Part shown: positions 533-58,889 of the stretch, one piece after another
How the letters are laid out: every line of letters starts with the position of its first letter
Position numbering within the stretch: the first letter of the stretch is position 1
Source: Bacteroidaceae bacterium
Lineage (GTDB): Bacteria; Bacteroidota; Bacteroidia; Bacteroidales; Bacteroidaceae
Reading direction: 5' to 3'
DNA: 62,063 bases
NCBI GenBank assembly: GCA_017541025.1
Contig: JAFXZY010000052.1
Location: 1-62,063, forward strand
Program-made: the position numbers and the translations under genes
Notes under the pieces: generated by a model
Database searches by the model: none
Seen by the model: only the letters and a program-made list of their open reading frames with translations
What the model was told of the DNA's origin: nothing

Positions 533-542
533 CTTCAACTTG

Positions 543-567: not shown

Positions 568-583
568 AATTTATCAGAAAACG

Positions 584-1051: not shown

Positions 1052-1065
1052 CAATCCATAATGTT

Positions 1066-1788: not shown

Positions 1789-1798
1789 GGGACTAACC

Positions 1799-1906: not shown

Positions 1907-1909
1907 GTC

Positions 1910-3154: not shown

Positions 3155-3156
3155 TG

Positions 3157-3292: not shown

Positions 3293-3295
3293 ACT

Positions 3296-3970: not shown

Positions 3971-3991
3971 AATATTGTTAGTTTTTATTTT

Positions 3992-4062
3992 ATTGAACAT
4001 TGAGCATTGAACATTGAGTATTAGTTGTTCGTCCTTCGTTATTCGTCCTTCGTTGTTAATTG
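3992..4062. repeat. ATTGAACATTGAGC and TTCGTCCTTCGTTATTCG short repeats
   Basis: Two unit types repeat head to tail in the gap between the isomerase and GH92 genes, followed by a TTGTTAATTGTTAATT run. Confidence 0.75.
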
Positions 4063-6249: not shown

Positions 6250-6258
6250 AACAATAAT

Positions 6259-6344
6259 AGTTGAGAGTTTAGAGTCAGTTTACAGTCACTTTATAGTTAA
6301 AATATTAAAAGGTTAAAAAGTTTTCGTTATCGTTGACGTTATCG
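6259..6344. repeat. GTTGAGAGTTTAGAG and GTTATCGTTGACGTTATC repeats
   Basis: AGAGTTTAGAGTCAGTTTACAG units, then the TTTTCGTTATCGTTGACG family seen also near 3250, fill the gap up to the aldolase stop codon. Confidence 0.75.
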
Positions 6345-44085: not shown

Positions 44086-44177
44086 TCTCAGAGTTTCAGA
44101 ACTGATGGCGGCTCATTTCCAGCCCTCAATTAAAATCGTTAAACTACACTGGTATGAATGATGGAACAATCTGAAAG

Positions 44178-44208
44178 AGTGCTATCCTAAATTGGGTGGC
44201 ACTTTTTC
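44178..44208 (+). terminator. Terminator of the xpt-pbuX operon
   Basis: AGTGCTATCC pairs with GGGTGGCACT over ten positions (three G-U) around TAAATT, followed by TTTTTCTT. Confidence 0.85.
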
Positions 44209-44231
44209 TTGCGTGATATATAAAAAAAGAC

Positions 44232-44239
44232 TAAATTTG
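44232..44239 (+). promoter_or_regulatory. -7 box of the discoidin/GH3 unit
   Basis: TAAATTTG, 59 bases before the start of the discoidin protein. Confidence 0.6.
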
Positions 44240-44298
44240 CAGGCGAAAATATGAAAACAAGAGGCTAAGAACCTATGTAAACACAAATATATAATAAT

Positions 44299-45225
44299 AT
44301 GAAAAGAAACATGATGAAAATGCTGGTACTGGCTGGTACCATGGGATTGGCAACAACAGTATTGGCACAGGAAACAATCAAGACTACGCTGGTTAGCGGT
44401 ACAGGTAACGATAGAGAGGAAGGTCCTGCTATGATTTGCGACGGAGATTTCTCTACTAAATGGTGTGTTGACGAACCTTCCCTTATGCCTTATACTATTA
44501 TTCTGGACGCAGGAAGTCCTACCAGTTTTGCAGAATACGGTTTAGTTACAGGTAACGATACACAGGATTATCCCGACCGAAACCCCGTGACCTGGGTACT
44601 GAGCGGTTCTAACGATAAACAGAACTGGACAGTAATGGACAAACAGGAGAACGACCGTACACTACGCGACGAGAACTATCAGGAGTATCTGTTCAAACCC
44701 GCCCAAAAAGGACAGTTCCGTTACTATAGATTTGAGTTCAAGAAGATGGCAGGCGGCACACGCATCCAGTTGAGCGAGATAATTCTGCACAAGGTAGGCA
44801 GAACTGTTGTCAAGGCTACATTCGTAAGCGGAACAGGAAACGGGAAAGAAGGTGCAGCAATGGTGAGCGACGGCCTATTCTATACCAAATGGTGTATAGA
44901 CGAACCCAGCCGTATGCCCTACTCTATCGTATTGGATGCCGGCTCACAGATCTCCCTTTGTGAATACGGACTGGTAACCGGCGATGATACGCATAGCTAT
45001 TCGGGCCGTAATCCCAGAAACTGGAAAGTATATGGTAGCAACGATAAGAATAATTGGAAGATGCTGACAGAGGTGAAGAACGATCGCAGCATGCGCGACG
45101 AGAACGAGCAGGAATACCGATTCAGAGTAAAAGATGCTGCAGCGTATCGTTACTACAAGTTTGAATTCGAGAAGGTATGGGAAGACACCCGCATCCAACT
45201 ATCGGAAATTAAACTGTATAAATAA
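44299..45225 (+). CDS. Secreted protein of two tandem discoidin (F5/8 C) domains
   Basis: 308 residues: signal peptide (to VLAQ) and two clearly duplicated domains, about 27-165 and 168-308. They share VSGTGN, DGxFxTKWCxDEPSxMPYxIxLDAG, YGLVTGxDT, SNDKxNW and the end TRIQLSEIxL. These are discoidin/CBM32-like sandwiches with no catalytic domain, so the protein is a candidate surface glycan-binding protein for the GH3 enzyme encoded 29 bases downstream. The inter-repeat identity is high, pointing to a recent duplication. Confidence 0.82.
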   Translation: MKRNMMKMLVLAGTMGLATTVLAQETIKTTLVSGTGNDREEGPAMICDGDFSTKWCVDEPSLMPYTIILDAGSPTSFAEYGLVTGNDTQDYPDRNPVTWVLSGSNDKQNWTVMDKQENDRTLRDENYQEYLFKPAQKGQFRYYRFEFKKMAGGTRIQLSEIILHKVGRTVVKATFVSGTGNGKEGAAMVSDGLFYTKWCIDEPSRMPYSIVLDAGSQISLCEYGLVTGDDTHSYSGRNPRNWKVYGSNDKNNWKMLTEVKNDRSMRDENEQEYRFRVKDAAAYRYYKFEFEKVWEDTRIQLSEIKLYK

Positions 45226-45254
45226 GATTATTAATCATTAACCTAATCCATGAA

Positions 45255-47390
45255 ATGAAAAGGATGGTCTTTTGCACCGCTTTGCTTGTTGCAGCATGCA
45301 ACATGCAGGCTCAGACAAATAATGTAGATAACCGCTCACATCTGGAGCGTGCCCGTGAACTGTGCTCGAAACTGACACTGGAGGAGAAAGTCAGACTGAT
45401 GGAGAACGATTCTCCTGAGATAGAACGTTTGGGTATTCCTAAATGGAACTGGTGGAACGAAACGCTGCACGGTGTGGGCCGTAACGGTAAGGCTACGGTA
45501 TTCCCCATAACAATGGGTTTGGCATCGACCTTTGACGATGCGCTGGTTCAGAAATGCTTTGATGTGGCAAGCACCGAGGCACGCGCCAAGTACAACATTG
45601 CTAGAAAAGAAGGACACATGAATATATACGAAGGCCTGTCATTCTGGACTCCTAACATCAATATCTTCCGCGACCCAAGATGGGGGCGCGGTCAGGAGAC
45701 ATACGGCGAAGACCCCTATCTGACAAGCAAGATGGGACTGGCCGTCGTACGCGGTCTGCAAGGAGAAGAGGGACACCGCTACCTGAAGCTTTATGCTTGC
45801 GCTAAGCATTATGCCGTACACTCAGGTCCGGAATGGAACCGTCATTCGTTTGACGTGGAAAACCTTCCGCCCAGAGATTTGTGGGAAACCTATCTGCCTG
45901 CATTCAAGGAACTGACCACAACAGGAAAGGTGCGCGAAGTGATGTGCGCCTACCAACGTCTGGACGGTGAGCCATGTTGCGGAAACAACAGACTTTTACA
46001 ACAGATTCTGAGAAAAGAATGGGGGTATGAGGGACTGGTAACAAGCGACTGTGGGGCAATAGATGATTTCTGGCGTCCGAACAGACACGGTTTTTCGAAG
46101 ACAAAGGAAGATGCTATCTCGCATGCTGTTCTGTCCGGTACCGATGTGGAATGCGGAAACACCTACCATTCGCTGACCGAAGCGGTAAAAGCAGGAAAGA
46201 TTACGGAAGCCCAGATAGACGAGAGCCTGATAAGACTGTTGAAGGGCAGATATGAATTGGGCGACCTGGACGATCCGTCGCTTGTGGAATGGAGCACCAT
46301 CGCCCCGGACACCATAGACTGCCAGACACATAAAGACATAGCATTAGAGGCTGCCAGAAGAACCATCGTTCTGCTGCAGAACAATAACAACATCCTGCCC
46401 CTGAAACCAGAAACCAAAGTCCTGGTGATGGGAGAGAATGCTGTGGACAGCACCATGATGTGGGGAAACTACAACGGATTCCCCTCTCATACTACTACCA
46501 TTCTGGAGGGATTGCAGAAGATAGGGCAGAACGTGGAGTACTATGCCGGTATCCCTATGGTTACGCTGGCTGATGCCCCCTACTCTACCGACGAGAATTT
46601 ACTGCAGGAGAAAGTGAAGGCATCGGACGTGATTGTTTTCGTTGGCGGTATCACCCCAAGACTGGAAGGCGAAGAGATGGATGTTAAATACCCGGGCTTC
46701 AAAGGTGGTGACCGAACCAGCATCGAACTGCCTGACGTACAACGGCAGATGATAGAGAAACTGCACAAGATGGGTAAACCCATTGTGTTCGTAAATTGTT
46801 CGGGAAGCGCCATCGCTATGGCTCCGGAAAAGAGAATCTGCAATGCCATCGTGCAAGCTTGGTATGGAGGTCAGTGTGGCGGTCAGGCTTTGGCCGAAAT
46901 CCTTTACGGCAAGGTGAATCCTTCAGGAAAACTACCAGTTACTTTCTATGCAAGCACCAGTCAGTTACCCGACTTCGAGGATTACCGCATGCTGAACAGA
47001 ACATACAGATATTTCAAGGGCAAACCGCTCTGGCACTTTGGCGAAGGTCTGAGCTATACAACATTCAAACTTGGCAAGCCCGTTTATACGCCAGGTTCTG
47101 TAAAGGTGAACATTAAGAATACAGGTAAACGCGACGGTGAAGAAGTTATCCAGATTTACCTGCGTAAGGTGGATGATACAGACGGACCCATAAAAGCCCT
47201 GCGTGCCTTTAAGCGTGTAAGCCTGAAAGCGGGCGAAAGCAAGGATGTTGCCATTACGTTTACAAAGGAAAACTTTGAATGGTGGGATGTATCAACCAAC
47301 ACCATGCGCCCAGTTGAAGGCAACTACGTGATGACCGTTGGTACCGACTCAAAGAGCGGACAACAGCTGAACATCAACTTTAAACCATAA
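45255..47390 (+). CDS. Secreted GH3 beta-xylosidase/beta-glucosidase
   Basis: 711 residues without the PA14 insert of the copy at 31502. Signal peptide ends near NMQAQ. The barrel shows WWNETLHGVGRNG, NIFRDPRWGRGQETYGEDP, KHYAVHSGPEWNRH and nucleophile Asp265 (VTSDCGAIDD); the second domain has GGITPRLEGEEM and a C-terminal Fn3-like domain. ETLHG is typical for the beta-xylosidase branch. It follows the discoidin gene by 29 bases and is convergent with the PI-PLC gene. Confidence 0.88.
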   Translation: MKRMVFCTALLVAACNMQAQTNNVDNRSHLERARELCSKLTLEEKVRLMENDSPEIERLGIPKWNWWNETLHGVGRNGKATVFPITMGLASTFDDALVQKCFDVASTEARAKYNIARKEGHMNIYEGLSFWTPNINIFRDPRWGRGQETYGEDPYLTSKMGLAVVRGLQGEEGHRYLKLYACAKHYAVHSGPEWNRHSFDVENLPPRDLWETYLPAFKELTTTGKVREVMCAYQRLDGEPCCGNNRLLQQILRKEWGYEGLVTSDCGAIDDFWRPNRHGFSKTKEDAISHAVLSGTDVECGNTYHSLTEAVKAGKITEAQIDESLIRLLKGRYELGDLDDPSLVEWSTIAPDTIDCQTHKDIALEAARRTIVLLQNNNNILPLKPETKVLVMGENAVDSTMMWGNYNGFPSHTTTILEGLQKIGQNVEYYAGIPMVTLADAPYSTDENLLQEKVKASDVIVFVGGITPRLEGEEMDVKYPGFKGGDRTSIELPDVQRQMIEKLHKMGKPIVFVNCSGSAIAMAPEKRICNAIVQAWYGGQCGGQALAEILYGKVNPSGKLPVTFYASTSQLPDFEDYRMLNRTYRYFKGKPLWHFGEGLSYTTFKLGKPVYTPGSVKVNIKNTGKRDGEEVIQIYLRKVDDTDGPIKALRAFKRVSLKAGESKDVAITFTKENFEWWDVSTNTMRPVEGNYVMTVGTDSKSGQQLNINFKP

Positions 47391-47402
47391 GAGAGATAGT
47401 TC

Positions 47403-48554
47403 TTACTGAAAGACTTTCTTCTGTCCTTCGATAATGTAAAGGCCTTTCTTTACGTGTGAAGAATGAAGAGTGAAAAATGAAGAATTGAGTTTTCTTCCTG
47501 AGAGGTCATAAACTTCCTCTTGAGATTTTTCACTTTTCATTCTTTCATTTTTCACTTCGCCTATGGCATCCTGAACTACCGAAGAGGTTTCAAGGCAATT
47601 ATAGATGATAAGGTCTATGAGTTCCTGCCCCTGGTACTCATTGTCTCCGGCGAAATCCATCAGAACAAACCCCATGGGACCGCTCTTTCCCTGCATATAA
47701 TCAATAAAAGCTTTATTGCAAGTACGGGCACACTCTTGGACACCCTCGAAAGTAGAATAAGAAATACCGAAGATAGAACCTTTTTTGCTATAGCCTGAAG
47801 CATGGTTCAAGAAGAGACGGTTCTCTTTGTCCTTTATAGAACGGGCCAACATAGATTTGATGGCCGAAACCTTCTTAGCTAACTGACCTTCTGCTGCCAC
47901 ATCATACATATCCTGAGTGGACATAATCATAGAAGCGCCAGAGGGTCCGGAAAGCCTTCTGTCATACACGGAGTTATCAGCACCGCCATTAAGATAACCG
48001 CCAAAGGGTCCGCTTTCATAAGTGTCGCGACTCATAAGCAAAAGCTTGCCGCGCATATCCTTTACTGTCAGAGATGGTGAAAAATCTATAATATAGGTTT
48101 TAAATTGTGTCAGGCATTTTCCCATCTGATTAGGCCATTCAGTCTTTTGGGAACTGGATTCACTATCATCCTCATGACGCATAATAACGAAAATAAATTC
48201 CTGCGGGTGAGCATCCAGAAAGTTGCAAAGCGTAGTCAGAACATCTGTAAATTTGACATTGGTAGAAACAATGCCATGATAAATCATCATTTCCTTCCCT
48301 GTCCAGGCAGGACGAAGATCGAACATTCTTACGCCATGTTCTAACTGCTGCGCTATAGTATAAGTCTGAGTATGTGCACTTCCTGTTAAACCACTACTAC
48401 TGCAACTGCTGGTGGCTGCATCATGAGCACCAGGAATAGACAGTCTTTTCAGGAGAAGGTTATCTTCAAGTGACTGCATCCAATTCAGATAATCAATAGC
48501 CCTAAGAGGCAGCAAGCAAAAGAACAGGGTAATCAGAAAGATGTTTTTTTTCAT
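47403..48554 (-). CDS. Secreted PI-PLC-X domain phospholipase
   Basis: 383 residues with signal peptide (to LPLRA). The X-domain barrel has the two catalytic histidines, SIPGAHDAAT and MMIYHGIVS, plus MFDLRPAW and EFIFVIMRHE. Bacterial PI-PLCs cleave phosphatidylinositol or GPI anchors and need no calcium. The C-terminal 60 residues form a sorting-like tail (VYDLSGRKL, KKGLYIIEGQKKVF) in which residues about 333-346 (KNERMKSEKS) and 354-366 (SSFFTLHSS) are repeat-encoded insertions. It lies next to the replication module, both on the minus strand. Confidence 0.85.
   Translation of the reverse strand: MKKNIFLITLFFCLLPLRAIDYLNWMQSLEDNLLLKRLSIPGAHDAATSSCSSSGLTGSAHTQTYTIAQQLEHGVRMFDLRPAWTGKEMMIYHGIVSTNVKFTDVLTTLCNFLDAHPQEFIFVIMRHEDDSESSSQKTEWPNQMGKCLTQFKTYIIDFSPSLTVKDMRGKLLLMSRDTYESGPFGGYLNGGADNSVYDRRLSGPSGASMIMSTQDMYDVAAEGQLAKKVSAIKSMLARSIKDKENRLFLNHASGYSKKGSIFGISYSTFEGVQECARTCNKAFIDYMQGKSGPMGFVLMDFAGDNEYQGQELIDLIIYNCLETSSVVQDAIGEVKNERMKSEKSQEEVYDLSGRKLNSSFFTLHSSHVKKGLYIIEGQKKVFQ
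47454..47560. repeat. Repeat DNA in the PI-PLC C-terminal tail
   Basis: GAAGAATGAAGAGTGAAAAATG-like units (written in parts, 47457-47490) and TTTTCATTCTTTCATTTTTC at about 47530-47552 are translated in frame; they are the same family as 388-418. Confidence 0.8.
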
Positions 48555-48630
48555 AATAAAAAGATTAAGCTATTTGATATATATGAAATATTTTGTTTTC
48601 TTCTTCGACACAGACAGTATATATATAATA

Positions 48631-48642
48631 TAATGTACGCGC
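48631..48642. repeat. TAATGTACGCGC, copy flanking the rep gene downstream
   Basis: TAATGTACGCGC, preceded by alternating TA, is repeated at 49885-49896 on the other side of the Rep gene, again preceded by alternating TA. Confidence 0.6.
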
Positions 48643-48662
48643 GCAAGACGTAGAAAAGATAT

Positions 48663-49847
48663 TTATCTGAAAGAGGGGTTTTCTACTTTATACTGAAGAG
48701 TCACAGGACCAAAGACCTCCCGTAGTGTAAGGAAAAAAACCGCACCACACTTTTCTATCTGTTCGCAAACAAATTTAGTGGGAGCAACAATCGTCAGGTG
48801 TTTGTCTGTAATACTATCAATTCTGCAAAAGACAAAATACTGACTGAAGAAAGGTTCCCCTACCCTCTCTTGAATTAGCTGCATAAACTTGTACCACTTC
48901 TCTTGCTGCTCATCTGTAAGATGACTGGTATCAGAAGGAGACGAATGAACTTCTTCGTGAACATCGGCATCAGGAACAGCAGGATTAAGAATAAAACGCA
49001 CGCTGTCTGGATTACCTCTCTTCTTACCATTGTGATATACAGGCTCATATTCAAAAGTAAATTCTATCTCACCTCGTTTAGCAAGCTTCTCCATTTCGCG
49101 CTGCGCAGGTTTCAAGACATCACGGTGGAATACTGCCCAAGTAGAACATTTGTCCTGAAGAACCTTAGTCCTATCCTTAGTATAAACCAGCACACCCAGG
49201 AATTCCTTTAGTGCTTCATATCCAAGCGTACACATTCGGGCCTTCTTCCATGCACTCAGATAAATATACAAACGAGGTGTTCTGGGGCTTCTACATAACT
49301 TAACTATACCACCTAAATGTTCAACGTAAGCACCACTTTTGTTAAAAACAAGATCAGCAACGGAAGCATTCATATCAATTTTTATAATACCACTTCTACG
49401 TTCCTGACCTGTGGTTGTTGTATAAGTGGGTACATCAACATCAGTAAAAATTACACTTGTCTTTGTACGTTTCTGACCCGTTTCGTCTGTATAATTAAAT
49501 GTAGTATCCAATTTCGTCAGGGCTTTACATGCCTCGTGAACAGCAGCATACTCCTTGGTTTTAACTCCCAAAGACTGTAACGGGACCTCAAAAGTTATCT
49601 TGCCTTTCGACAATTCTTCTTTAGAAAAGAGTGGTCCCATCTTACCGTCAACGAAACATTCATTGATTCTGGTCTGCATTGTTGCCGCAATAGCAACAAG
49701 AACGTTTGTCTGAATAAGAGAAAAATCACCTCTTATCTGAGAGTAAACAAGTGGATTCTTAATATAATCTGAATTCTCCAACTGCTGGATAAGTTCGTTT
49801 TTCGGACTTACCATTTGCAATTTTCCGTTTGTTTTCTTTGTTGCCAT
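48663..49847 (-). CDS. Replication initiator (Rep_3-type) with DnaA-domain-I-like C-terminus
   Basis: 394 residues from ATG 49847. Two winged-helix segments typical of iteron-binding Rep_3 initiators are seen (about 20-130: NPLVYSQIRGDFSLIQTNVLVAIA; about 150-285: RLYIYLSAWKK, VFHRDVLKPAQREMEKLA). Residues about 311-394 (EQQEKWYKFMQLIQERVG, LTIVAPTKFVCEQIEK, LREVFGPVTLQYKV) look like DnaA domain I, the helicase-recruiting domain. The gene lies beside a 22-bp iteron array and par genes, so it is most likely the initiator of this replicon. The longer frame up to 49982 runs through the promoter and is rejected. Confidence 0.85.
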   Translation of the reverse strand: MATKKTNGKLQMVSPKNELIQQLENSDYIKNPLVYSQIRGDFSLIQTNVLVAIAATMQTRINECFVDGKMGPLFSKEELSKGKITFEVPLQSLGVKTKEYAAVHEACKALTKLDTTFNYTDETGQKRTKTSVIFTDVDVPTYTTTTGQERRSGIIKIDMNASVADLVFNKSGAYVEHLGGIVKLCRSPRTPRLYIYLSAWKKARMCTLGYEALKEFLGVLVYTKDRTKVLQDKCSTWAVFHRDVLKPAQREMEKLAKRGEIEFTFEYEPVYHNGKKRGNPDSVRFILNPAVPDADVHEEVHSSPSDTSHLTDEQQEKWYKFMQLIQERVGEPFFSQYFVFCRIDSITDKHLTIVAPTKFVCEQIEKCGAVFFLTLREVFGPVTLQYKVENPSFR

Positions 49848-49884
49848 TGATATTTTGGAAGTAAAAAACCCTATATTATATATA

Positions 49885-49903
49885 TAATGTACGCGCAAAG
49901 ATA
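49885..49903 (-). promoter_or_regulatory. rep promoter -7 box with overlapping TAATGTACGCGC repeat
   Basis: Minus-strand TATCTTTG at 49896-49903 lies 48 bases before the Rep start; the repeat at 49885-49896 falls in the transcription-start region, where an autoregulator could bind. Confidence 0.55.
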
Positions 49904-49965
49904 TTGTTTTTTTTAATTGAAAAGAAGAAAAAATAAATAAAAAAATATCTTTACTTGTAAAAAGG

Positions 49966-50140
49966 GATAACATTGTCCTCAAAAGGCAGAAACCAAGTCC
50001 TCAAAAACAAATTACTTCCATCTCAAAGAGAGAAAACCAAGTCCTCAAAACAAAATAACTTTTTTCTCAAGAAGAAGAAACCAAGTCCTCAAAAACAAGA
50101 TTACCTATACCTCAAAAAGGAGGTAACTTTCTCCGCAAAA
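49966..50140 (+). repeat. Iteron array A: eight direct repeats, 22-23 bp period
   Basis: The TCCTCAA core or variants start at 49976, 49998, 50020, 50042, 50064, 50086, 50109 and 50132: spacings of 22 (five times) and 23 (twice). Two forms alternate, AACCAAGTCCTCAAAA and (A)TTACTTNNNCTCAA. This is a typical initiator-binding array. Confidence 0.92.
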
Positions 50141-50263
50141 TTATATTATCTATGACAATTATAAGGTGCAAAAATAAAGCTTCATATCCCTACTCTACCC
50201 TCATTATTTTTAAAACAGAGACTAATCACCCTCTAAGTCAGATGGAAAAAATATTTCTTTATA

Positions 50264-50328
50264 AGGTTACAATCTTCTCAACATACAAGTTACCTTCTCC
50301 TCAATTCGCAAGTAACCAAGTCCTCAAA
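50264..50328 (+). repeat. Iteron array B: three direct repeats, 23 bp period
   Basis: Cores start at 50275, 50298 and 50321; the middle copy reads AAGTTACCTTCTCCTCAA. Confidence 0.85.
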
Positions 50329-50340
50329 TTCTTTCATATA

Positions 50341-50760
50341 ATTGGTTGAAGGAAATAATTTAATGTATTACAATAGGAATATTTATATAAAATGTTGTAT
50401 AACAGTGAAATAAAAATATAAATATATCCAGTTTTCAGTTAAATATTCATTATATAATTTATATCTGTCTTAAAGCAACTCTTTAAATAAAAGGGTAAGA
50501 AATCACAGAAATAGGGCTAAAGGTTACTTTCTCCTCAACAAAAAGTTACTTTTTCCTCAAAAAAAGGTTTCAAAATTCGCATTTTAAGATTGGTTTCTTT
50601 GCAAGACAAGGTTACTTTCTCCTCAGTTTTATATTTGAAAAACACTGGGTTTCAGATAGTTAGCCTCAATCTATATATAAATATAATAACATTGTTATAT
50701 TAGTAAAAAGAGAATTTTTATTAGGGATATTAACTATATCAATTATATTATATTTTTCTA
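50341..50760. other. Origin spacer: AT-rich DNA with three more iterons
   Basis: 50341-50520 and 50640-50760 are very AT-rich and could be the unwinding regions; the second holds the palindrome ATAACATTGTTAT (50686-50698). Between them lie iterons AGGTTACTTTCTCCTCAA (50521), AGTTACTTTTTCCTCAA (50544) and AAGGTTACTTTCTCCTCAG (50608). No DnaA box of the form TTATCCACA was found, and no gene. Confidence 0.6.
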
Positions 50761-50802
50761 TGTTACTGAAAAACAGCACTTTGCAACGATGACTTGCAAA
50801 AA

Positions 50803-50908
50803 AGGTAACCTCTTGTTGCGGAGTAGGTTACCTTAGATTGCAGAAAAACCTGCCTTTTGTTGAGGAGAAGGTTACTTTCCCCTATTGAATTGAGGAGAAA
50901 GTAACCTT
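50803..50908. repeat. Inverted iterons next to the par genes
   Basis: The iteron occurs here in the opposite orientation: TTGCGGAGTAGGTTACCTT (50816), TTGAGGAGAAGGTT (50860) and TTGAGGAGAAAGTAACCTT (50890). A forward relative, AAGGTTACTTTCCCC, overlaps the second, so the last two form a palindrome. Confidence 0.85.
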
Positions 50909-50916
50909 TATGATAG

Positions 50917-51306
50917 TTATATATGTGTATCACGAACATATTGACGGATAAGCTCTGCACCTTCTGGAGATATCACCTCGCCAGCCATATAGCGTTTCAG
51001 AAATTCGTTTAAGGCTGTACGTACGACGTCCTGACGGTCAACCTTACATTGCCAATGGATTTCTTCAACAGCTCTGTTGTGTCTTTCCTCGAAGAAGATA
51101 AGCTTGCCATTCTGACGAGGAATGATACTGTTGTCTTTTTTGCGACCCGGTTTCTTGTATGTCGGAACACCAGGTTCATATGTTACATTCTCCGCAATTG
51201 GAGCAGGCGGAGTACTGGTTGGAATTTTGTCATACAATTCTTCTGTTTGTGTTTTCATGCCATTAGCCAATTCGCTAATAGGTGTTAGTTGTTTAATCTT
51301 TGGCAT
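50917..51306 (-). CDS. Small putative partition/DNA-binding partner of ParA
   Basis: 129 residues. The N-terminal half is polar and proline-rich (IPTSTPPAPIAENV, KKPGRKKDN); the C-terminal half (VEEIHWQCKVDRQDVVRTALNEFLKRYMAGE) has the beta-strand/two-helix pattern of a ribbon-helix-helix DNA-binding domain. It begins 20 bases after the ParA stop and ends at the inverted iterons, the usual place of a ParB-, ParG- or ParR-like centromere binder. No known family is recognised with certainty. Confidence 0.65.
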   Translation of the reverse strand: MPKIKQLTPISELANGMKTQTEELYDKIPTSTPPAPIAENVTYEPGVPTYKKPGRKKDNSIIPRQNGKLIFFEERHNRAVEEIHWQCKVDRQDVVRTALNEFLKRYMAGEVISPEGAELIRQYVRDTHI

Positions 51307-51326
51307 AGTTCTACCCTCCCCTATTA

Positions 51327-52166
51327 TTATTCTTGTTCATTAATGAATGATAAATATGCTTCGCTTGCTTTCTTGTACCAAGCATCTGGCGTCCACTTCT
51401 TGTTACGTGTAGCCTTACCTACTATCTGTTCTGCCAAACGCATGTAATCATCTGCAGCAGTACTGTTTGGCGCGTATTCAAATAGACTCATCTGTTCCTT
51501 TGGTGCCTCGTTACATTTGGCACACTTACGAATGGGAACAGGGAATACAGGTGTATTGGGCTGTGCGCGGAAGAATTCTTGTACTTCCTTTCCCATCTTT
51601 GTCTTTTCGAACTGAGTGAGCAAATATCCCATCAGCTCTATCTTCTTCCCCATCATTTTGTTTATTTCATCCACAATGGTTCGTACAGCGTCTTTTCCTT
51701 GTACTGAGTACAGATCTGTTCTTACAGGTACTATAACGCCGTCAGAAGCCGCAATAGCGTTTTTGTTGAGGATGCTGTTACAACCAGGAGCACAGTCGAT
51801 AAGAATGTAATCATACATATCTTTAAGTGCGTTCAAGCGTATAGAAAGATAATTCTCCCTATAAACCTTATCTGCGAGCCATGTATTCAGTTCATCTATG
51901 CGAATACTACTCGGGATATAGTCCATCCCTTTGTAGCGTTCGTATACAGGAGGAGCAATGGTGTCGTCTTTTAACCAGTCGTAAAGCGTTGCTACGCCAA
52001 CTTTGTAGCTTGACCGGTCTATTGTTATGGTCATGTTGCACTGTTTATCTGTATCAACCAGCAGAACACGCTTCCCAAGTAGCCATAGTGCCGTTCCCAG
52101 GTTAATGGTTGTAGTAGTCTTTGCTACCCCACCCTTGTCGTTGATTATAGAAATTACTTTTGCCAT
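51327..52166 (-). CDS. parA: ParA-family partition ATPase
   Basis: 279 residues starting directly at the deviant Walker box: KGGVAKTTT (11-19) with the signature lysine of ParA/MinD enzymes, then VLLVDTDKQCNMT (Walker A') and YILIDCAPG (Walker B). No N-terminal helix-turn-helix, so it is a small type Ib ParA. It would segregate the replicon together with the small protein downstream. Residues 205-230 contain a CAKCNEAPKEQ segment not usual in the family. Confidence 0.92.
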   Translation of the reverse strand: MAKVISIINDKGGVAKTTTTINLGTALWLLGKRVLLVDTDKQCNMTITIDRSSYKVGVATLYDWLKDDTIAPPVYERYKGMDYIPSSIRIDELNTWLADKVYRENYLSIRLNALKDMYDYILIDCAPGCNSILNKNAIAASDGVIVPVRTDLYSVQGKDAVRTIVDEINKMMGKKIELMGYLLTQFEKTKMGKEVQEFFRAQPNTPVFPVPIRKCAKCNEAPKEQMSLFEYAPNSTAADDYMRLAEQIVGKATRNKKWTPDAWYKKASEAYLSFINEQE

Positions 52167-52192
52167 ATTCCTAATGTTATTTTTATCTGCTG

Positions 52193-52200
52193 CAAATGTA
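52193..52200 (-). promoter_or_regulatory. -7 box of parA
   Basis: Minus-strand TACATTTG, 27 bases before the parA start. Confidence 0.55.
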
Positions 52201-52219
52201 CTGTTTTATTTTTATACAG

Positions 52220-52520
52220 CAATGATATTTTTGAAATATTTTGTATATTCTGCTATATAACATATTTGAGATATGCTAATATACTGTATATTTTGCATAT
52301 TCAATATAACTAAATATAGAAAATATAAAGAAATACGATATATTCAAATAAATGAAATAATAGAAATACACAGATATACTATATATAAAAGATATAAGGA
52401 TATAAGATATATGTGAATATCTAATATATATAACATATACAATATATGTAATATATCAAACATATATGATATATAAAGAATATATAATATATATGAAATA
52501 GTTTGATTTTGTTCTCGAAA
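52220..52520. other. AT-only tract with many ATATAT palindromes upstream of parA
   Basis: About 300 bases consist almost only of A and T, with repeated elements such as GATATATAAAGAATATA and AATATATATGAAATAG and many self-complementary ATATAT cores. No gene. Position next to parA suggests a centromere (parS) or unwinding element. Confidence 0.5.
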
Positions 52521-52622
52521 CATAGGGCAGTGAGTAATAGTGTTTAAAGTTAAATAGGTGCATATAATTATTAAACTACATTAAACAAATCAGTAAACTT
52601 TGGCAGGAAATAAAATAATGTT

Positions 52623-52630
52623 TACCTTTG
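52623..52630 (+). promoter_or_regulatory. -7 box of the dnaJ-like/HAD unit
   Basis: TACCTTTG, 16 bases before the chosen ATG of the J-domain protein. Confidence 0.6.
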
Positions 52631-52645
52631 CGCAAAATTTCAGAC

Positions 52646-53053
52646 ATGAGGTTCTTTCTTAAGTTTAAATGGATTTTTCTTTTTATAGGATTTAGGTTGG
52701 CTGGTGGTAAGGGAGCATTCCTTGGCTTTCTTTTTGGTGCTTTTATAGATAGCCTGCTTTCTCCGCCAACTATCAGATTTCGTGTATATACAAACCATCA
52801 ACAATGGAATAGTCGTCCATTTGACCCATACACATACGTTGATACAAAACTAAATGATGCATACAGAACTTTAGAGATAAGTGAGAATGCAACAGATGAT
52901 GAAGTAAGACAGGCATATAAGCGTATGGCCTTAAGGTATCATCCGGATCGTATTGCATCGCAGGGAGAGGAGGCCAGAAAGGCAGCCGAACGAGCCTTTC
53001 AGCAGATTAATCAGGCAAAAGATATTATTTATAAAGCAAGAGGGCTTAAATAG
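52646..53053 (+). CDS. Membrane-anchored DnaJ-domain protein
   Basis: 135 residues from ATG 52646. One or two hydrophobic stretches (about 9-38, FLFIGFRLAGGKGAFLGFLFGAF) precede a C-terminal J domain (about 72-135) with HPD at 99-101 (YHPDR). The layout resembles a shortened DjlA without TerB. It would recruit DnaK at the inner membrane. The HAD gene follows after 27 bases. Confidence 0.85.
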   Translation: MRFFLKFKWIFLFIGFRLAGGKGAFLGFLFGAFIDSLLSPPTIRFRVYTNHQQWNSRPFDPYTYVDTKLNDAYRTLEISENATDDEVRQAYKRMALRYHPDRIASQGEEARKAAERAFQQINQAKDIIYKARGLK

Positions 53054-53080
53054 TCGGGATATTTGATATATATAAAATAT

Positions 53081-53743
53081 ATGGAAAATCAATTCAGGGT
53101 AGCATTATTTGATTTAGACGGAACATTAATCAATACAGAATACCAATACACGCAGTTTTGGGAAAGGGTAGGGGAGGAGTTGCATCTTAACATTCCAGAT
53201 TTGGCTCAGGTTATCAAAGGAAGGACACTCACATCGATTTTTCAGAATTTTATTCCGTCCGTCGATATGCAGAATGAAATTACCCGTAGGCTTGTTGTTT
53301 TCGAGAATCAGATGCAATTTCCGTTTTATCCTGGTGTTTTGGACTTTTTGGATGATATCCGGAGGAATGGCGTAAAGTGTGCTGTTGTTACCAGTTCGAA
53401 TATAGCCAAGATGGAAGCTGTTAAACGGAAAGTCCCCAATTTCGACAAGTTGTTTGACAAAGTCCTGACAGCAGAGGATTTTGCAGCTTCGAAGCCTGAT
53501 CCTTCGTGTTATATATTAGGAGCTCAGGTTTTTTCTGCCGAGAAGAGTCGGTGTGTAGTATTCGAGGATGCTGTTAATGGCCTTCAGGCAGGTATTTCAT
53601 CGGGGATTTTCACGATAGGTTTTGCGACGACCAACCCAAGGAATGTTATAGAGCCTTTATGTCATCATGTTCAGGATGATTTTGTTCATCTTTCCTTTGC
53701 TGACGTAGAAAAAATGCTTGTCAGCTATTGGCAGAAGAACTAA
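53081..53743 (+). CDS. HAD-superfamily phosphatase (beta-phosphoglucomutase-like)
   Basis: 220 residues from ATG 53081. HAD motifs: FDLDGTLINTE (nucleophile Asp), VVTSSN (motif II), the Lys in KPDPSCY (motif III) and VVFEDAVNGLQAG (motif IV). The helical cap and the length fit the subfamily of beta-phosphoglucomutase/phosphoglycolate-phosphatase-like enzymes. Substrate unknown. It ends overlapping by four bases the opposite-strand DUF4250 gene. Confidence 0.85.
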   Translation: MENQFRVALFDLDGTLINTEYQYTQFWERVGEELHLNIPDLAQVIKGRTLTSIFQNFIPSVDMQNEITRRLVVFENQMQFPFYPGVLDFLDDIRRNGVKCAVVTSSNIAKMEAVKRKVPNFDKLFDKVLTAEDFAASKPDPSCYILGAQVFSAEKSRCVVFEDAVNGLQAGISSGIFTIGFATTNPRNVIEPLCHHVQDDFVHLSFADVEKMLVSYWQKN

Positions 53744-53922
53744 CGGAACTGTTTCTGTTCTTCCAGGTATTCAAATCCGTATTGTTTCAGGAAAGCTTTA
53801 ATTTCGTTGATATCTTTACCGAAATAATTGCATAAGGACTCTAAAGAGTCGTACATGTTATCGCGCAACTGCATATTAATGCTCGAAACCAAAATATATG
53901 GGTCTTGTGGCAAGTTATCCAT
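53740..53922 (-). CDS. DUF4250 small protein
   Basis: 60 residues: LPQDPYILVSSINMQLRDNM, LESLCNYFGKDINEIKAFL and a C-terminal GFEYLEEQKQF match DUF4250, a small conserved family of unknown function. It has its own -7 box (minus-strand TACCTTTG at 53956). Confidence 0.75.
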   Translation of the reverse strand: MDNLPQDPYILVSSINMQLRDNMYDSLESLCNYFGKDINEIKAFLKQYGFEYLEEQKQFR

Positions 53923-53955
53923 CTTTGTAAAGTCAGTTTTTTTCTAAAATTGGCG

Positions 53956-53963
53956 CAAAGGTA
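53956..53963 (-). promoter_or_regulatory. -7 box of the DUF4250 gene
   Basis: Minus-strand TACCTTTG, 34 bases before the start. Confidence 0.6.
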
Positions 53964-54016
53964 CAAAAAAACGGGCTAATTGCATAGTTTCTTTTGTCTC
54001 ATATTATTCTTTTTCG

Positions 54017-54024
54017 TAAATTTG
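54017..54024 (+). promoter_or_regulatory. -7 box of the GlsB-GH31-TrmH unit
   Basis: TAAATTTG, 34 bases before the GlsB-like start codon. Confidence 0.6.
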
Positions 54025-54057
54025 CCTGCAAAAGTGTAATATTTTAAATATAAAATT

Positions 54058-54303
54058 ATGTATCACGGACTTTTAATGGGTATTATTTCGGGAATCATAG
54101 CAGGCTTTGTAGCCAGCAAGTTGTTTGACGGTCAGGGTAAAGGTTGCATTGTAAACCTTGTGCTGGGAATTATCGGCGGTGCCTTAGGCGGATGGCTTTT
54201 CAGCCTGTTTGGTTTGGGAGCAAATAGCTGGATCGGCGAGTTGATCGTTGCTGTTATCGGAGCTATGGTTTTCTTATGGGTATGGAACAAGTTGCTTAAA
54301 TAA
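54058..54303 (+). CDS. GlsB/YeaQ/YmgE-family membrane protein
   Basis: 81 residues, three hydrophobic helices with the glycine-rich pattern of the transglycosylase-associated family: GIISGIIAGFVASKLF, NLVLGIIGGALGGWLFSLFG and IVAVIGAMVFLWVW. It is a small stress-response inner-membrane protein in other bacteria; biochemical role unknown. The GH31 gene begins 26 bases downstream. Confidence 0.88.
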   Translation: MYHGLLMGIISGIIAGFVASKLFDGQGKGCIVNLVLGIIGGALGGWLFSLFGLGANSWIGELIVAVIGAMVFLWVWNKLLK

Positions 54304-54328
54304 TATCCGATTTTTCAAATTAGCCAGC

Positions 54329-57300
54329 ATGAAGTTAGGACATATCAAATGTTCTGTCTTATGCCTGCTTGTCTTTCTGTGTAGCCACATCTATGCCCAG
54401 GAGGAGCTGAACCCTGTAGCAGATCCAGCAGCAGTTGTTATAAGCGGGAATGCCCGTTTTACGGTTCTTACCAGCAAGATGATTCGAATAGAATACAGCA
54501 GCACCAAGCAGTTCGAGGACAGAGCCACCTTTGCAATTGTAAACCGTCGTTTACCCGTTCCTTCATTCACTACCGAAGAATCCGACGGCTATCTTTATAT
54601 CCGTACTACAGATGTAACCCTGAGGTACAAAATAGGTTCTGTTATAAGAGCCACAGACAAGAAACCGGATAATCTGATGGTTACTTTCTTGTTGAATGGT
54701 ATTACCTGTACCTGGTATCCGGGCAAGGACGATGCGTTGAACCTTCTGGGTACCAACAGAACCCTTGATACGGCTTGGGGAGATAATGCACGTGAGAAGT
54801 TAGAGAAAGGTCTCCTCTCTCGTGCCGGTTGGAGTATTATAGACGAGAGTCCTACTGCCACTCGAGGTGATGGAAGTACCACATTGCCTATGGCTCTCAA
54901 TCAGGATGGTTATATGTGGTGGGAGAAGGCTGCCGACACGAAGGCCATCGACTGGTATTTCCTGGGTTACGGTCATCAGTATAAAGAGTGTATCCGGGAT
55001 TTCACAAGGGTAGGGGGGCGCGTACCTTTGCCTCCCAAGTATATCTTCGGCTATTGGTATAGCAGGTATTGGGCTTATTCACAGACCGATTTCCAGAATA
55101 TCATACGTGATGTAGAGAATAACGATATCCCTATGGACGTCATTATTATGGATATGGATTGGCACAAGAGCGGTTGGACTGGGTGGAGCTGGAATACCAG
55201 CAAGATACCCAATCCCACCAATCTGATTCGCTATATGCATACCCACGGACTGCGAACAGCTCTGAATCTGCATCCGTCAGATGGAATAAAGAATTCCGAG
55301 GATCAGTACAAGAACCTGCGAAGTGCAATGGGATTGCCCTCATCGTTTACCGAGACCATCCCTTGGACTATTCAGGACTATAGTTTTGCACGTCCTTTCT
55401 TCGACAAAGTCATCCGACCGTTGGAGAAGCAGGGAGTGGATTTCTGGTGGCTCGACTGGCAACAGGAGAAGACGGTAGGAGAGCATGCCAGAGCCAAAGG
55501 GTACGAACTTACCGACGGAGCCGACAAACTGAGCGAGACGTTCTGGTGTAACCATACATTCTTCGAGGATATGCAGAAGAACCGTCCTGAACTCCGTCCC
55601 GTTATCTATCACCGGTGGGGTGGGTTAGGTTCGCACCGTTATCCCATCTGTTTCAGTGGTGATACATGGGCAGCATGGTCCACATTGGGGTACGAGATAT
55701 ACTTTACCAGCAACGCCAGCAACGTATGTTATGCTTATTGGGGCCATGATTTAGGTGGTCATCAAGGTGGCGATAACGACCCCGAGTTATTGCTTCGCTG
55801 GCTTCAGTTCGGAGCCTTCACGCCAATCTTCCGTACCCACGCCACCAACGATTCCAAGTTGGAACGCAGGATTTGGAAGTACAGTAATTTCACTCAGCTC
55901 CGCGAAGCTGTCCGTATGCGTTATCAGCTGTTCCCCTATCTATATACAGCAGCCCGTGAGACGTACGATACGGGCATTGGCATGAACCGTCCCCTCTATT
56001 ACGAGTGGCCCGAGGAGAACAATGCATACGTTTACGAGGACGAGTATATGTTTGGCAACGATATGCTTGTTGCTCCTATCTATACACCTGCCAGAAATGG
56101 TATCAGCTCCCGTAACATCTGGTTGCCTCGTGGCTTATGGTGGGACGTAACAGAAAACCGTCTCAGAGAGGGTGGGGAAGTCTTCCGTGCCAATTATACG
56201 CTCGACGAGTTCCCTGTCTTCTATCGTCCGGGAAGCGTCATACCCTTCTATCCTGTTCAGCGCAGCGTGGTTACCAATCCCGAGGAGATTATCCTGAAAG
56301 TCGTTCCCGGAGCCGATGGTACCGGCTCTTTCTACGAGGATAATGGCGACAATCAGGATTATATCTCAAACGGATGGACCCGTACTACATTCTCTTATCA
56401 GAATGTATCTTCTGCCAGCAAGCGTCTGGTTATCCGACCTCGTGAGGGTAGTTTCGAAGGCATGCCTGCCACCCGCACTTGGGCTGTTCAGTTCCTGGGA
56501 ATGACGAAAGCGCCTCAGAATGTTACGGTTAGCGGCGACGAAAGCATTACTCACGAGGAAAGTTACGATGCAGAAGCCAAGATCCTGACAGTAACCCTTC
56601 ATACATCGGTGTTAGACAAAGAGATTTCCGTTCAGGTGGATGGTGCTGAGGCTGAATCCGCAGAAGTGGCCCAGGGCGTCTCTAATGGCGAAACAGAGGA
56701 TGTTTCCTCTCTTCCTGTCGGCTCTCCTTCTTCCAGGAATCAAATCGCCCGTGCCGCTTATGTTTCCAAACTTTATGTTCGCGGTTCTGCCATTCCTGGA
56801 GGCGTTCAGGAACTAACGCCCTTTAATTCCAGAACCTATTTCAAGTATCACGGCAAGTTGCTTCCCGGTACTTTTGTAATCACTACATCAGAGCAGCACA
56901 GGTCTGGTGCCCGTTATTACAAGCCGGCACAGTTTGATTCTAATGTTGTGAACGATGGCATTAACTATACCTCAACAACTGACAGTACTGCTGCAACCTG
57001 GAACGTACTCTTCGAGGCAGATAACTATCGCTTTACCGTAACGCCCTCCAGTTCCACAGCCGGAACCATGAAGGGAGAACTCTTCACATGGTGGTACGAG
57101 TCGTGGATTTGTGGCGGTTGCGTCGAGGACAACCAGACTCCTGGTGCAGGAAACTGGCAGATTTCCAGCGGGAAGGCTATGGAACAGTCGTCCTTAAATC
57201 CATACGAATGGACTTGGACGGGTGAACTTCGTAACTATACCAGCAACGACGAGCCCAAGCGCTTCAAGATTAATGGCCAGTACGGATGGAGTCCCAAGGT

Positions 57301-57697
57301 GCTGCATCCCTATAGGCAAGACGAGAGCATCCTTACTGCCAGCGAAATATGGTACAATGGCACTTCCGATTATAAGTGGTCCATTGTCAAGGACGGATTC
57401 TACCGTATTACTGTTAACGTCTTCGAGGAAACCATCTCAGGCGAATATCTCGGCAACGATCCCGATGGAGTAGTTTCCGCCAAGTCCGAAGCTAAAGTGT
57501 TCGTCGATGTGCGCGACCGTACCATTCAGGTGGGTTCTTCCCAGGTGATGGCCGTCTTCCTGTTCTCTGCCGACGGACAGCAAATTCTGTCCGATAGCGG
57601 TAGCCAGGTAACATTGGTAGCTCCTAATGCAGGAACATACATCTTGCATGCCACCAATGGTAAGGAGAACTTTACACGCAAGATAACGATTCAATGA
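54329..57697 (+). CDS. Secreted GH31 alpha-glycosidase with SusE/F-like extension
   Basis: 1122 residues from ATG 54329; signal peptide ends near HIYAQ. GH31 N-domain (about 30-210), barrel with nucleophile Asp376 (FWWLDWQQ) and acid/base Asp445 (FSGDTWAAW), GHDLGGH, and the proximal and distal C-domains (to about 780, GSFYEDNGDNQDY). After 780 come two sandwiches, the second (about 880-1060, GELFTWWYESWICGGC) resembling SusE/SusF-type starch-binding modules, and a sorting-like tail (NAGTYILHATNG). Activity could be alpha-glucosidase or alpha-xylosidase. Its stop overlaps the next start (ATGA). Confidence 0.88.
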   Translation: MKLGHIKCSVLCLLVFLCSHIYAQEELNPVADPAAVVISGNARFTVLTSKMIRIEYSSTKQFEDRATFAIVNRRLPVPSFTTEESDGYLYIRTTDVTLRYKIGSVIRATDKKPDNLMVTFLLNGITCTWYPGKDDALNLLGTNRTLDTAWGDNAREKLEKGLLSRAGWSIIDESPTATRGDGSTTLPMALNQDGYMWWEKAADTKAIDWYFLGYGHQYKECIRDFTRVGGRVPLPPKYIFGYWYSRYWAYSQTDFQNIIRDVENNDIPMDVIIMDMDWHKSGWTGWSWNTSKIPNPTNLIRYMHTHGLRTALNLHPSDGIKNSEDQYKNLRSAMGLPSSFTETIPWTIQDYSFARPFFDKVIRPLEKQGVDFWWLDWQQEKTVGEHARAKGYELTDGADKLSETFWCNHTFFEDMQKNRPELRPVIYHRWGGLGSHRYPICFSGDTWAAWSTLGYEIYFTSNASNVCYAYWGHDLGGHQGGDNDPELLLRWLQFGAFTPIFRTHATNDSKLERRIWKYSNFTQLREAVRMRYQLFPYLYTAARETYDTGIGMNRPLYYEWPEENNAYVYEDEYMFGNDMLVAPIYTPARNGISSRNIWLPRGLWWDVTENRLREGGEVFRANYTLDEFPVFYRPGSVIPFYPVQRSVVTNPEEIILKVVPGADGTGSFYEDNGDNQDYISNGWTRTTFSYQNVSSASKRLVIRPREGSFEGMPATRTWAVQFLGMTKAPQNVTVSGDESITHEESYDAEAKILTVTLHTSVLDKEISVQVDGAEAESAEVAQGVSNGETEDVSSLPVGSPSSRNQIARAAYVSKLYVRGSAIPGGVQELTPFNSRTYFKYHGKLLPGTFVITTSEQHRSGARYYKPAQFDSNVVNDGINYTSTTDSTAATWNVLFEADNYRFTVTPSSSTAGTMKGELFTWWYESWICGGCVEDNQTPGAGNWQISSGKAMEQSSLNPYEWTWTGELRNYTSNDEPKRFKINGQYGWSPKVLHPYRQDESILTASEIWYNGTSDYKWSIVKDGFYRITVNVFEETISGEYLGNDPDGVVSAKSEAKVFVDVRDRTIQVGSSQVMAVFLFSADGQQILSDSGSQVTLVAPNAGTYILHATNGKENFTRKITIQ

Positions 57698-58533
57698 ATA
57701 TAGAGACAATATCAAGCGCCCAGAATCCGCGTATCAAGCATTTGCTGGCCCTTCAGCAGAAATCCTCCCTACGTCGTGAGGAAGGTCTCTTCGTGGTCGA
57801 GGGACGCAGGGAGTTGGAGCATTGTATAAATGCTGGTATGAAGGTAGAATGTATCTATTGTCTTGACGACAATGAACTTTCTAACCTATCAACTTTTAAT
57901 TCTCAATTCTCAATTCTCAATTCTCAACTGTCACTTGTCAAAGTGACGAAAAACGTTTACGAGCGTATTGCCTATCGTGGCAGCACAGAGGGTATAATCG
58001 CCGTCATCCGTACCCCACAGCCTCGCACTTTAGCGTCATTGCTTCAGCAAGAGGGTAGGGGAGTAAACGGACAACCGCTCTTTGTCGTTCTGGAGAGCGT
58101 TGAGAAGCCCGGCAACCTCGGAGCTGTCCTTCGTAGTGCCGATGCTGCCAATGCCACAGGCGTCATTGTCTGCGATCCGTTGACCGATTTGTATAACCCA
58201 AATCTCATTCGCTCCTCCATCGGAGCCGTCTTTACTGTACCTACCGTAGCTTGTACCTCGGAAGAGTGTATAGCTTTCCTAAAGCAGCACAGCGTGCAGA
58301 TACTTACGGCTCAGTTGCAGGATTCGCATTTGTATTACGACACTCCCATGGCAGGCCCTACGGCCATTGTGATGGGAACAGAGAGTACAGGACTTACCGA
58401 TGCATGGCGTCAGGTAGCCGATGCACATATCCGCATCCCTATGTTAGGACAGTTGGATTCGCTGAATGTCTCCGTTTCAGCGGCAATTCTACTTTTCGAG
58501 GCTGTCCGCCAGCGTCAGGCTCCGGATGCTTAG
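57694..58533 (+). CDS. TrmH/SpoU-family RNA 2'-O-methyltransferase
   Basis: 279 residues. The SPOUT motifs are clear: NLGAVLRSADAANATGV, AIVMGTESTGLTDAW and IPMLGQLDSLNVSVSAAILLFEA, with an N-terminal substrate-binding domain (ISSAQNPRIKHLLAL, FVVEGRRELEHCI). It is expected to methylate 23S rRNA or tRNA. Residues about 65-79 ([15 protein letters not shown]) are encoded by the AATTCTCAATTCTCAATT repeat, inserted between the N-terminal domain's helix and strand. Translationally coupled to GH31 by a 4-base overlap. Confidence 0.9.
   Translation: MNIETISSAQNPRIKHLLALQQKSSLRREEGLFVVEGRRELEHCINAGMKVECIYCLDDNELSNLSTFNSQFSILNSQLSLVKVTKNVYERIAYRGSTEGIIAVIRTPQPRTLASLLQQEGRGVNGQPLFVVLESVEKPGNLGAVLRSADAANATGVIVCDPLTDLYNPNLIRSSIGAVFTVPTVACTSEECIAFLKQHSVQILTAQLQDSHLYYDTPMAGPTAIVMGTESTGLTDAWRQVADAHIRIPMLGQLDSLNVSVSAAILLFEAVRQRQAPDA
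57888..57935. repeat. Repeat DNA inside the TrmH-family gene
   Basis: Four AATTCTCAATTCTC-type units translated in frame; same family as 38394-38430. Confidence 0.9.
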
Positions 58534-58615
58534 GTTTTATTGGTCTATGATCTTGCTCAATGTCAAGATTTATCCGAAACGCTTGTTTTAAACTCTAATC
58601 TTTCAACTCTACACA

Positions 58616-58821
58616 ATTTTTACTGCTACGTTAGGCGGCAAAAATTAACATTAATAGTAGCAATTGTTTCTATTAACAGCTGCATTACAGCCCACTTTTG
58701 CTGTTGCTCAATAATGTAAATAATTTTCCAAACATCTTTTCTGACCTCTTTTTCCTGTCCAGTTAGAGAAAACTTACTCCCTAACTAGAAAATTTTTGCA
58801 GCCTAACGTGGCAGTAAAAAT
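58616..58821. repeat. 206-bp element bounded by 31-bp inverted repeats
   Basis: The arms at 58616-58646 and 58791-58821 match in 29 of 31 positions (core CTACGTTAGGCGGCAAAAA versus the complement of TTTTTGCAGCCTAACGTGG). The interior carries AGTTAG/CTAACT pairs and no gene, as expected of a MITE-like or folded element. Confidence 0.7.
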
Positions 58822-58889
58822 TCTTATGCTAAAGAGCATGTTACGGCATTTTGTTGAGTTTGGGTGGTGTCAAAATATTTCTTTCAGCT

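Follow-up and report, generated by a model that had tools for sequence, protein, structure and literature searches.

The window analysed here is a stretch of 62,063 bp, the whole of contig C79 in the genome of a Bacteroidaceae bacterium (3.28 Mb in 95 contigs, 84% complete). At positions 48,663 to 52,166 it carries a replication and partition module consisting of the gene for a plasmid-type initiator, Rep-A, which has DnaA domain I fused to its C-terminal end, together with arrays of iterons, AT-rich spacers, the gene for a 129-aa protein and parA. A complete Rep-iteron-Par module had been named in the original prediction, and its genes were found in place, all on the minus strand. G, C and L numbers denote compared genomes, contigs and loci, respectively, g numbers denote genera, and Rep-A is the initiator type of the window and Rep-B its paralog. 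The features are as follows.

48663..49847, minus strand: Rep-A, 394 aa, predicted Rep_3-type initiator with two winged helices and a C-terminal DnaA domain I
48678..48905, minus strand: section of Rep-A assigned to DnaA domain I (roughly aa 315-390) from Pfam DnaA_N, hhalign and PDB profile matches
49966..50147, plus strand: iteron array 1, eight 22-23-bp units of two alternating sequence types
50265..50327, plus strand: iteron array 2, three units with 23-bp spacing
50328..50507, no strand: AT-rich spacer, candidate unwinding element
50522..50626, plus strand: iteron array 3, three clear units
50794..50906, minus strand: inverted iteron copies, three clear and one weak
50917..51306, minus strand: 129-aa small protein, candidate ParB-like partner of ParA
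51327..52166, minus strand: ParA, 279 aa, with the deviant Walker A motif KGGVAKTT
52167..52627, no strand: AT-rich region (80% A+T) upstream of parA, candidate centromere or promoter
44172..58839, no strand: segment surrounding the module, with 98.1% identity to G104:C13 and mostly retained in G021, G050 and G123

The start of Rep-A was placed at the ATG at 49847, and the reading frame stays open upstream to 49982. The Pfam models Rep3_N and Rep3_C scored 20.2 and 18.9 bits on it against cut-offs of 22.4 and 21.1, respectively. Among 15 aligned relatives searched at E 0.1, Rep3_C was matched in 15 and Rep3_N in 12, and the paralog Rep-B exceeds the Rep3_N cut-off with E 7e-8. A profile of 15 relatives matched five PDB entries, of which pi of R6K (2nra, E 0.004), found with the winged-helix part, was the sole plasmid Rep. 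Judged from these matches, Rep-A is probably a divergent Rep_3 initiator, ending in DnaA domain I. The Rep_3 type was not confirmed in the form given by the original prediction, with Rep3_N and Rep3_C just under their Pfam cut-offs and DnaA_N above its own; that prediction contained neither domain I nor the second (Rep-B) module.

Domain I makes up the final 75-80 residues of Rep-A. Pfam DnaA_N matched aa 315-366 with 27.2 bits (E 3e-6, cut-off 24.6), and hhalign aligned the Rep C-terminus to domain I of the 31 DnaA proteins of the family over 75 columns with 99% probability and E 9e-18; the highest probability among 20 column shuffles was 4.9%, and that of the winged-helix part was 0.6%. In the profile search against the PDB, the C-terminus matched the DnaA entries 4tps and 8btg with E 1e-5 and 3e-4, respectively. 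In alignment, the domain is 32% identical to that of the host's own DnaA, which is encoded on contig C61. DnaA models match Rep-A in the domain I part only; the AAA+ domain III and the box-binding domain IV, taken to define a whole DnaA, were not found in it.

Searching titled genome records with the Rep profile yielded 42 loci on contigs of uncultured bacteria titled Bacteroidaceae, Prevotellaceae or Bacteroidales, with one titled Clostridia; where the titles name a source it is animal gut or faeces, mostly of ruminants. The domain I model was positive at 40 of the 42 loci, 37 of them at an independent E-value (i-E) of 0.001 or better. Weaker matches came from L078, L088 and L096, the last with masked bases, and L081, whose Rep is cut by the contig end, was not scored positive. 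Fused Reps also occur in genus g2, with i-E of 4e-17, 2e-12 and 2e-8 in G208, G190 and G239, respectively. Genus g14 showed weak domain I matches (i-E 2e-2 to 3e-6) at eight of nine loci and none at the other. Five Reps of four plasmid records and the Reps of few-contig genomes of genus g6 were not positive with the model. An order-wide search at E 1e-15, covering 247 genomes spread over many families, matched only the window's own genome. In a search of 399 genomes of the family, the C-terminal part of the Rep model also matched DnaA-sized frames, so that the 289 matching genomes are not countable as Rep carriers.

Recent copying of domain I from the host DnaA was considered and rejected, since the domain tree places the Rep domain of the window apart from DnaA. 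In the same tree the Rep domain of G208, from another genus, groups with the DnaA of its own genus. A single clade of all Rep domains was not rejected (p-AU 0.415, on few columns and with 12 of 76 rows dropped beforehand). The ratio of non-synonymous to synonymous change (dN/dS) in the domain was not used, dS being saturated and 4 of 15 pairs usable.

DnaA domain I uses one surface to recruit helicase, without an intermediary in E. coli and via DnaD in B. subtilis (PMC10201431), and the Phe for this recruitment is F46 in the former and F49 in the latter (PMC5448010, PMC10201431). Residues were counted in alignment A2, whose 36 rows minus L066 give 35 Rep domains of the genus. The helicase-surface Phe position holds F in 31 and Y in 4 of these, and all 35 retain the Pro preceding it. 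An aromatic residue occupies the W6 position in every one of the 35, W itself in 29, and the W25 position is Tyr in 27. In three checked Reps of genus g14 the helicase Phe position is Glu.

Iteron sites were defined by at most 4 mismatches to a 17-mer consensus with 14 fixed bases, this consensus being drawn from the tested sequences themselves and the controls being mononucleotide shuffles. The window totals 19 sites, including one overlapping site and one within the 129-aa gene, against a mean of 1.04 and a maximum of 3 in 50 shuffles. Six relatives hold 19, 15, 19, 15, 15 and 18 sites, and shuffle means range from 0.9 to 1.5 over all seven species. Seven of the eight units in array 1 fit the consensus and the eighth was recognised by eye; the alternation of the two types gives a 44-bp composite unit. 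Three clear inverted copies lie at 50816-50906. The eight iterons, six further direct copies, three inverted copies and AT-rich spacers described earlier were all recovered, with 77-83% A+T at 50328-50507 and a weaker inverted copy at 50794 in addition. The repeat consensus is about GTTAC-N4-TCCTCAA for Rep-A and GTTCC with GCACC ends for Rep-B of this clade. Repeats spaced 27 bp also lie upstream of parA, at 52250-52510.

The exact DnaA box TTWTNCACA was absent from seven of seven origins, near-matches were not clearly enriched in them (2-7 against shuffle means near 5), and none of 11 contigs has exact TTATCCACA within 5 kb. The lack of an exact box leaves a DnaA-type oriC at the module unsupported. 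In G120, three one-mismatch boxes cluster in 400 bp at 4.3 kb from the module.

Iteron Reps bind iterons, and the helicase arrives through Rep and/or DnaA (PMC10797057, PMC6090056). At the present locus, Rep-A would bind the iterons through its two winged helices and open the AT-rich spacer, and the C-terminal domain I would then recruit the replicative helicase, directly or via a loader. As DnaA boxes were not recognised, it is simplest to suppose that Rep supplies a helicase-recruiting arm of its own; DnaA boxes would not be needed for initiation at the module. Alternatively, and more tentatively, domain I may bind the host DnaA or a DnaA regulator and so tie the replicon to the chromosome cycle, not recruiting helicase. 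E. coli domain I also dimerises, with W6 among the residues involved, and binds DiaA, HU and Dps (PMC5448010), which fits the aromatic W6 position of every Rep domain counted; the F or Y at the helicase surface in all 35 and the lack of an exact DnaA box nearby argue for helicase recruitment instead.

ParA and the 129-aa protein would segregate the replicon copies. The ParA of the original prediction was confirmed at 51327-52166 by Pfam AAA_31 (E 9e-41). ParA identity is 44-47% between the A and B types, 95-97% among three A proteins and 80-96% among four B proteins. The 129-aa protein, whose candidate role as the partner of ParA comes from its place and conservation, was found in seven of seven syntenic Rep-A loci, ten of ten fetched Rep-B loci and two of four more distant A-like loci. 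It has no match in Pfam or NCBIfam and nothing credible in the PDB, and its PHROG match, of no known function, is not convincing (E 0.09); its Rep-B counterpart matches a transcriptional-repressor PHROG with E 0.027. The small DNA-binding protein expected at this place thus exists as an open reading frame, without a convincing family match.

The second, paralogous module of this genome has its Rep-B on contig C66. Rep-A, Rep-B and dnaA lie on separate contigs (C79, C66 and C61, respectively) of a genome that is itself fragmented. Rep-B has about 490 aa, is mostly 44-47% identical to Rep-A over the winged helices and occurs in many species of the genus, and the Rep-A type was found with at least 64% identity in 9 other species. 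The Rep search matched 58 of 139 genomes, some solely via a DnaA-sized frame, and both types are carried by G000, G104, G071, G021, G050 and G123. Rep, the small protein and ParA recur in 7 species with partly common flanks. A PI-PLC-X domain protein (window 47403-48554) adjoins Rep and is kept at six compared loci.

Core genes share contigs with both types of module in relatives. The single contig G024:C1 bears Rep-B with gyrB, ftsZ, murC, murD, murG, mraY, dnaK, murA and dxr, and also an ftsW-like gene below the cut-off of that model. In three species, G024, G032 and G038, ftsZ and neighbouring cell-wall genes lie 33-51 kb from Rep-B, with gene names in the latter two assigned by identity to G024. 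In the genome of the window, a homolog of the G024 DnaK lies 23 kb from Rep-B, and ftsZ is on another contig. G050:C69 joins Rep-A with asd, carbamoyl-phosphate synthase parts, asnB, pyrG, dapF, dapL and gltBD. The asd gene lies 9-12 kb from Rep-A in three of seven species, being on the Rep-A contig in G050, G021 and G123; in G024 and G032 asd and Rep are on different contigs. Plasmid-type replication and partition genes, one mark of a secondary chromosome (chromid), are present in the window; core genes on the same replicon, another mark, are seen in relatives (G024:C1 for Rep-B, G050:C69 for Rep-A), the window itself bearing only a tRNA-Arg. The chromosome-like surroundings noted in the original prediction are thus borne out by the contigs of relatives.

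That tRNA-Arg(TCT), at window 458-533, is present as one copy with 97-100% identity in each of seven genomes, and the sole close copy of this genome is on the window contig. In six of six relatives it is on a contig other than that of Rep-A. A second FtsZ-like gene (53% identity) adjoins tRNA-Arg at G021:C48:50987-51964. It is unlikely that the window comes from a megaplasmid devoid of essential genes, or that it arose by faulty binning or assembly. The position of the tRNA in relatives would suit such an origin, as would the somewhat different tetranucleotide use of C79 and the match of the window to four compared Rep-A contigs solely at 22.7-58.8 kb, its first 22 kb being unmatched on them and positions 1-7172 matching a Rep-less contig of G050. 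The module and part of its flanks nevertheless recur in 7 species, and core genes lie on the Rep-A contig in G050, with asd there in G021 and G123 as well.

GC skew was followed along 11 contigs or stretches of 60-222 kb, and in 9 of them the cumulative minimum lies at most 2.6 kb from a point immediately upstream of Rep, namely in 3 of 4 for Rep-A and 6 of 7 for Rep-B. The uniform expectation for 4 kb is 0.9, giving a P of 3e-9 that is overstated because of relatedness among the species and a non-uniform distribution of minima. The left-to-right skew switch, taken over 50 kb with ±2.5 kb left out, has a positive sign in all 11, with a within-contig rank below 0.05 in two. The skew signal in relatives is, in our view, real but modest. 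A skew switch near 50 kb, offered in the original prediction as a test, did not appear in the window, which has its minimum at 21 kb and a weak change at 50 kb. For the second chromosomes of P. intermedia, the consulted part of a 2015 paper reports no clear skew transition (PMC4755523).

On balance we lean slightly towards a chromid of an uncultured genus of gut Bacteroidales, for which the locus would provide the replication origin and the partition module, with domain I probably recruiting the helicase. The module would then sit on a separate replicon and be active as an origin in this strain. The origin of a secondary chromosome, one of the two readings proposed before, agrees with the core-gene contigs and with the skew minima in relatives, and disagrees with the skew of the window.

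A number of observations weigh against the chromid reading. The 42 loci are all on contigs of uncultured or metagenome-assembled genomes, the longest of 248 kb, and a complete genome of the genus was not found. The skew minimum is at the module in neither of the two contigs of this genome, which are both failures among the 11. With the surroundings of the module masked, it stays at the junction in 7, 8 and 4 of 11 for ±2.5, ±5 and ±8 kb, respectively, so that part of the skew signal is local. The flanks are rearranged among near relatives; asd is on another contig in G104 and G101, and the search for it in G000 and G071 was negative. The tetranucleotide distance of C79 to C66 and to the dnaA contig is 0.10-0.13, against 0.07 between the latter two, the contigs being of unequal lengths. 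In G119 and G135, the 15-20 kb fetched on account of their Rep-A-like genes showed neither ParA nor the small protein, the Rep of L066, one of 42, is without domain I, and the helicase Phe is replaced by Ile in G015, a further member of the genus. Glu at the position of E. coli E21 occurs in 2 of 35 Rep domains, but the DnaA proteins of the family lack it as well (0 of 31).

Further points of this kind come from four few-contig relatives of genus g6. Their unfused Rep is on the ftsZ contig in four of four, apart from dnaA where dnaA is listed. As a rule, the largest replicon holds dnaA. In the two-contig genomes, Rep and ftsZ are on the larger contig (G192:C1 with 1,796,408 bp, G464:C2 with 1,954,177 bp and G226:C2 with 1,913,733 bp) and dnaA is on the smaller one (1.37-1.45 Mb). 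Comparison with such genomes, as suggested by the original prediction, was favourable in that Rep is on the ftsZ contig and apart from dnaA, and unfavourable in that the Rep of G192 and G464 is not at the minimum, the skew being one-sided over ±100 kb. In four of four, pyrG lies on a contig other than that of Rep, which is the dnaA contig in the three where dnaA is listed. With Rep on the ftsZ contig and pyrG apart in all four, the Rep/ftsZ chromosome of that genus is the probable counterpart of Rep-B. Rep-A probably sits in DNA related to the other chromosome and, given the place of pyrG, could be on the primary chromosome.

The main chromosome may instead have taken up the module as an integrated plasmid or phage-plasmid, which would be silent there or serve as an additional origin, a possibility that we regard as doubtful. 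It would explain why pyrG lies 30 kb from Rep-A in G050, yet off the Rep contig in the few-contig relatives, and why the skew minimum of the window is not at the module; that the module can travel follows from two viral-catalogue contigs bearing a fused Rep with ParA. The skew minima at most Rep-A and Rep-B modules are less easily reconciled with integration, and Rep, ParA, the small protein and the iterons are open and conserved in seven of seven species, unlike a decaying insert.

Two readings of Rep-A are thus offered: it may mark a third chromosome, or it may give the primary chromosome an additional origin. Under the former, the genus might have a tripartite genome with a DnaA chromosome and secondary chromosomes A and B, the last bearing ftsZ and gyrB, each of the two started by its own hybrid of Rep and DnaA domain I and with helicase loaded without DnaA at the origins. 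As one joint proposal this is speculative, and we would not expect it to hold in full.

Taken as a whole, the module appears to work like an iteron chromid origin, and the architecture of its initiator appears new. The Rep_3 initiators of iteron plasmids (pi of R6K, RepE of F; PF01051/PF21205) share with it the layout of two winged helices (WH1-WH2) predicted for Rep-A, adjacent iterons, AT-rich spacers and par genes, whereas Rep-A is very divergent, below the Pfam cut-offs, and has the C-terminal DnaA domain I. Compared with DnaA itself (PF11638; 4tps, 8btg, 2e0g), the whole of domain I is present and the helicase-surface Pro and Phe are kept, but the domain is C-terminal on a plasmid-type Rep instead of N-terminal on an AAA+ initiator, and W25 is mostly Tyr. 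The Rep of a 568-kb P. nigrescens record annotated as a plasmid (WP_004364903) resembles the Rep-B type in its winged helices and middle domain, and it and the Reps of the few-contig relatives differ in having no DnaA domain I. RctB of Vibrio cholerae is a different initiator, in which DnaA domain I is not known to us. Its chromid origin ori2 is alike in being a plasmid-type iteron origin on a core-gene replicon (PMC6090056). The Rep_3 of the P. intermedia second chromosome differs, as iterons and plasmid-maintenance genes were not found near its gene; in the consulted part of the 2015 paper, the replication origin and terminus of that chromosome are called unknown and no iteron-like repeats are given by the Rep_3 gene (PMC4755523).

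A fusion of Rep with DnaA domain I is not described in any of the titles and abstract openings listed by searches of an open-access library. According to the consulted part of a 2018 review, the regulation of unwinding and replisome recruitment at chromid origins had not yet been studied and the interaction of RctB with helicase was still to be demonstrated (PMC6090056). A Rep bearing a helicase-recruiting DnaA domain would be a direct and testable answer on helicase recruitment at chromid origins for one lineage. The fusion suggests a route from plasmid initiator to chromosome initiator, and a way in which bacteria may bring the replication machinery to their additional chromosomes. One chromid finder picks chromosomes by DnaA and its homologs (PMC12456017), and such tools might be misled by these hybrid proteins.

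The hybrid initiator also occurs in mobile elements. Three viral-catalogue contigs carry a related Rep, two of them fused (i-E 4e-11 and 1e-12) and the third unfused. The fused Reps, L280 and L281, are on IMG/VR contigs of 67.7 and 41.6 kb and adjoin ParA and a 629-aa protein, which is terminase-like by appearance and without a PHROG match; both are possibly phage-plasmids. In the plasmid collection, domain I of Rep-B was unmatched by tblastn at E 0.01, and none of the plasmid records matching three fused Reps (38, 38 and 39) covers 80% in one place. The Rep of the window was unmatched in the phage collection at E 1e-5. The 317-kb plasmid record of Segatella hominis (L033) has annotated ftsZ, ParA, Rep and dnaB in 17 kb, and the end of its Rep is faintly domain I-like by eye, without a match to the domain I model. 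A prophage-like block, recognised by eye from translations, lies at G021:C16:15000-43000, 13-41 kb from the Rep-A module.

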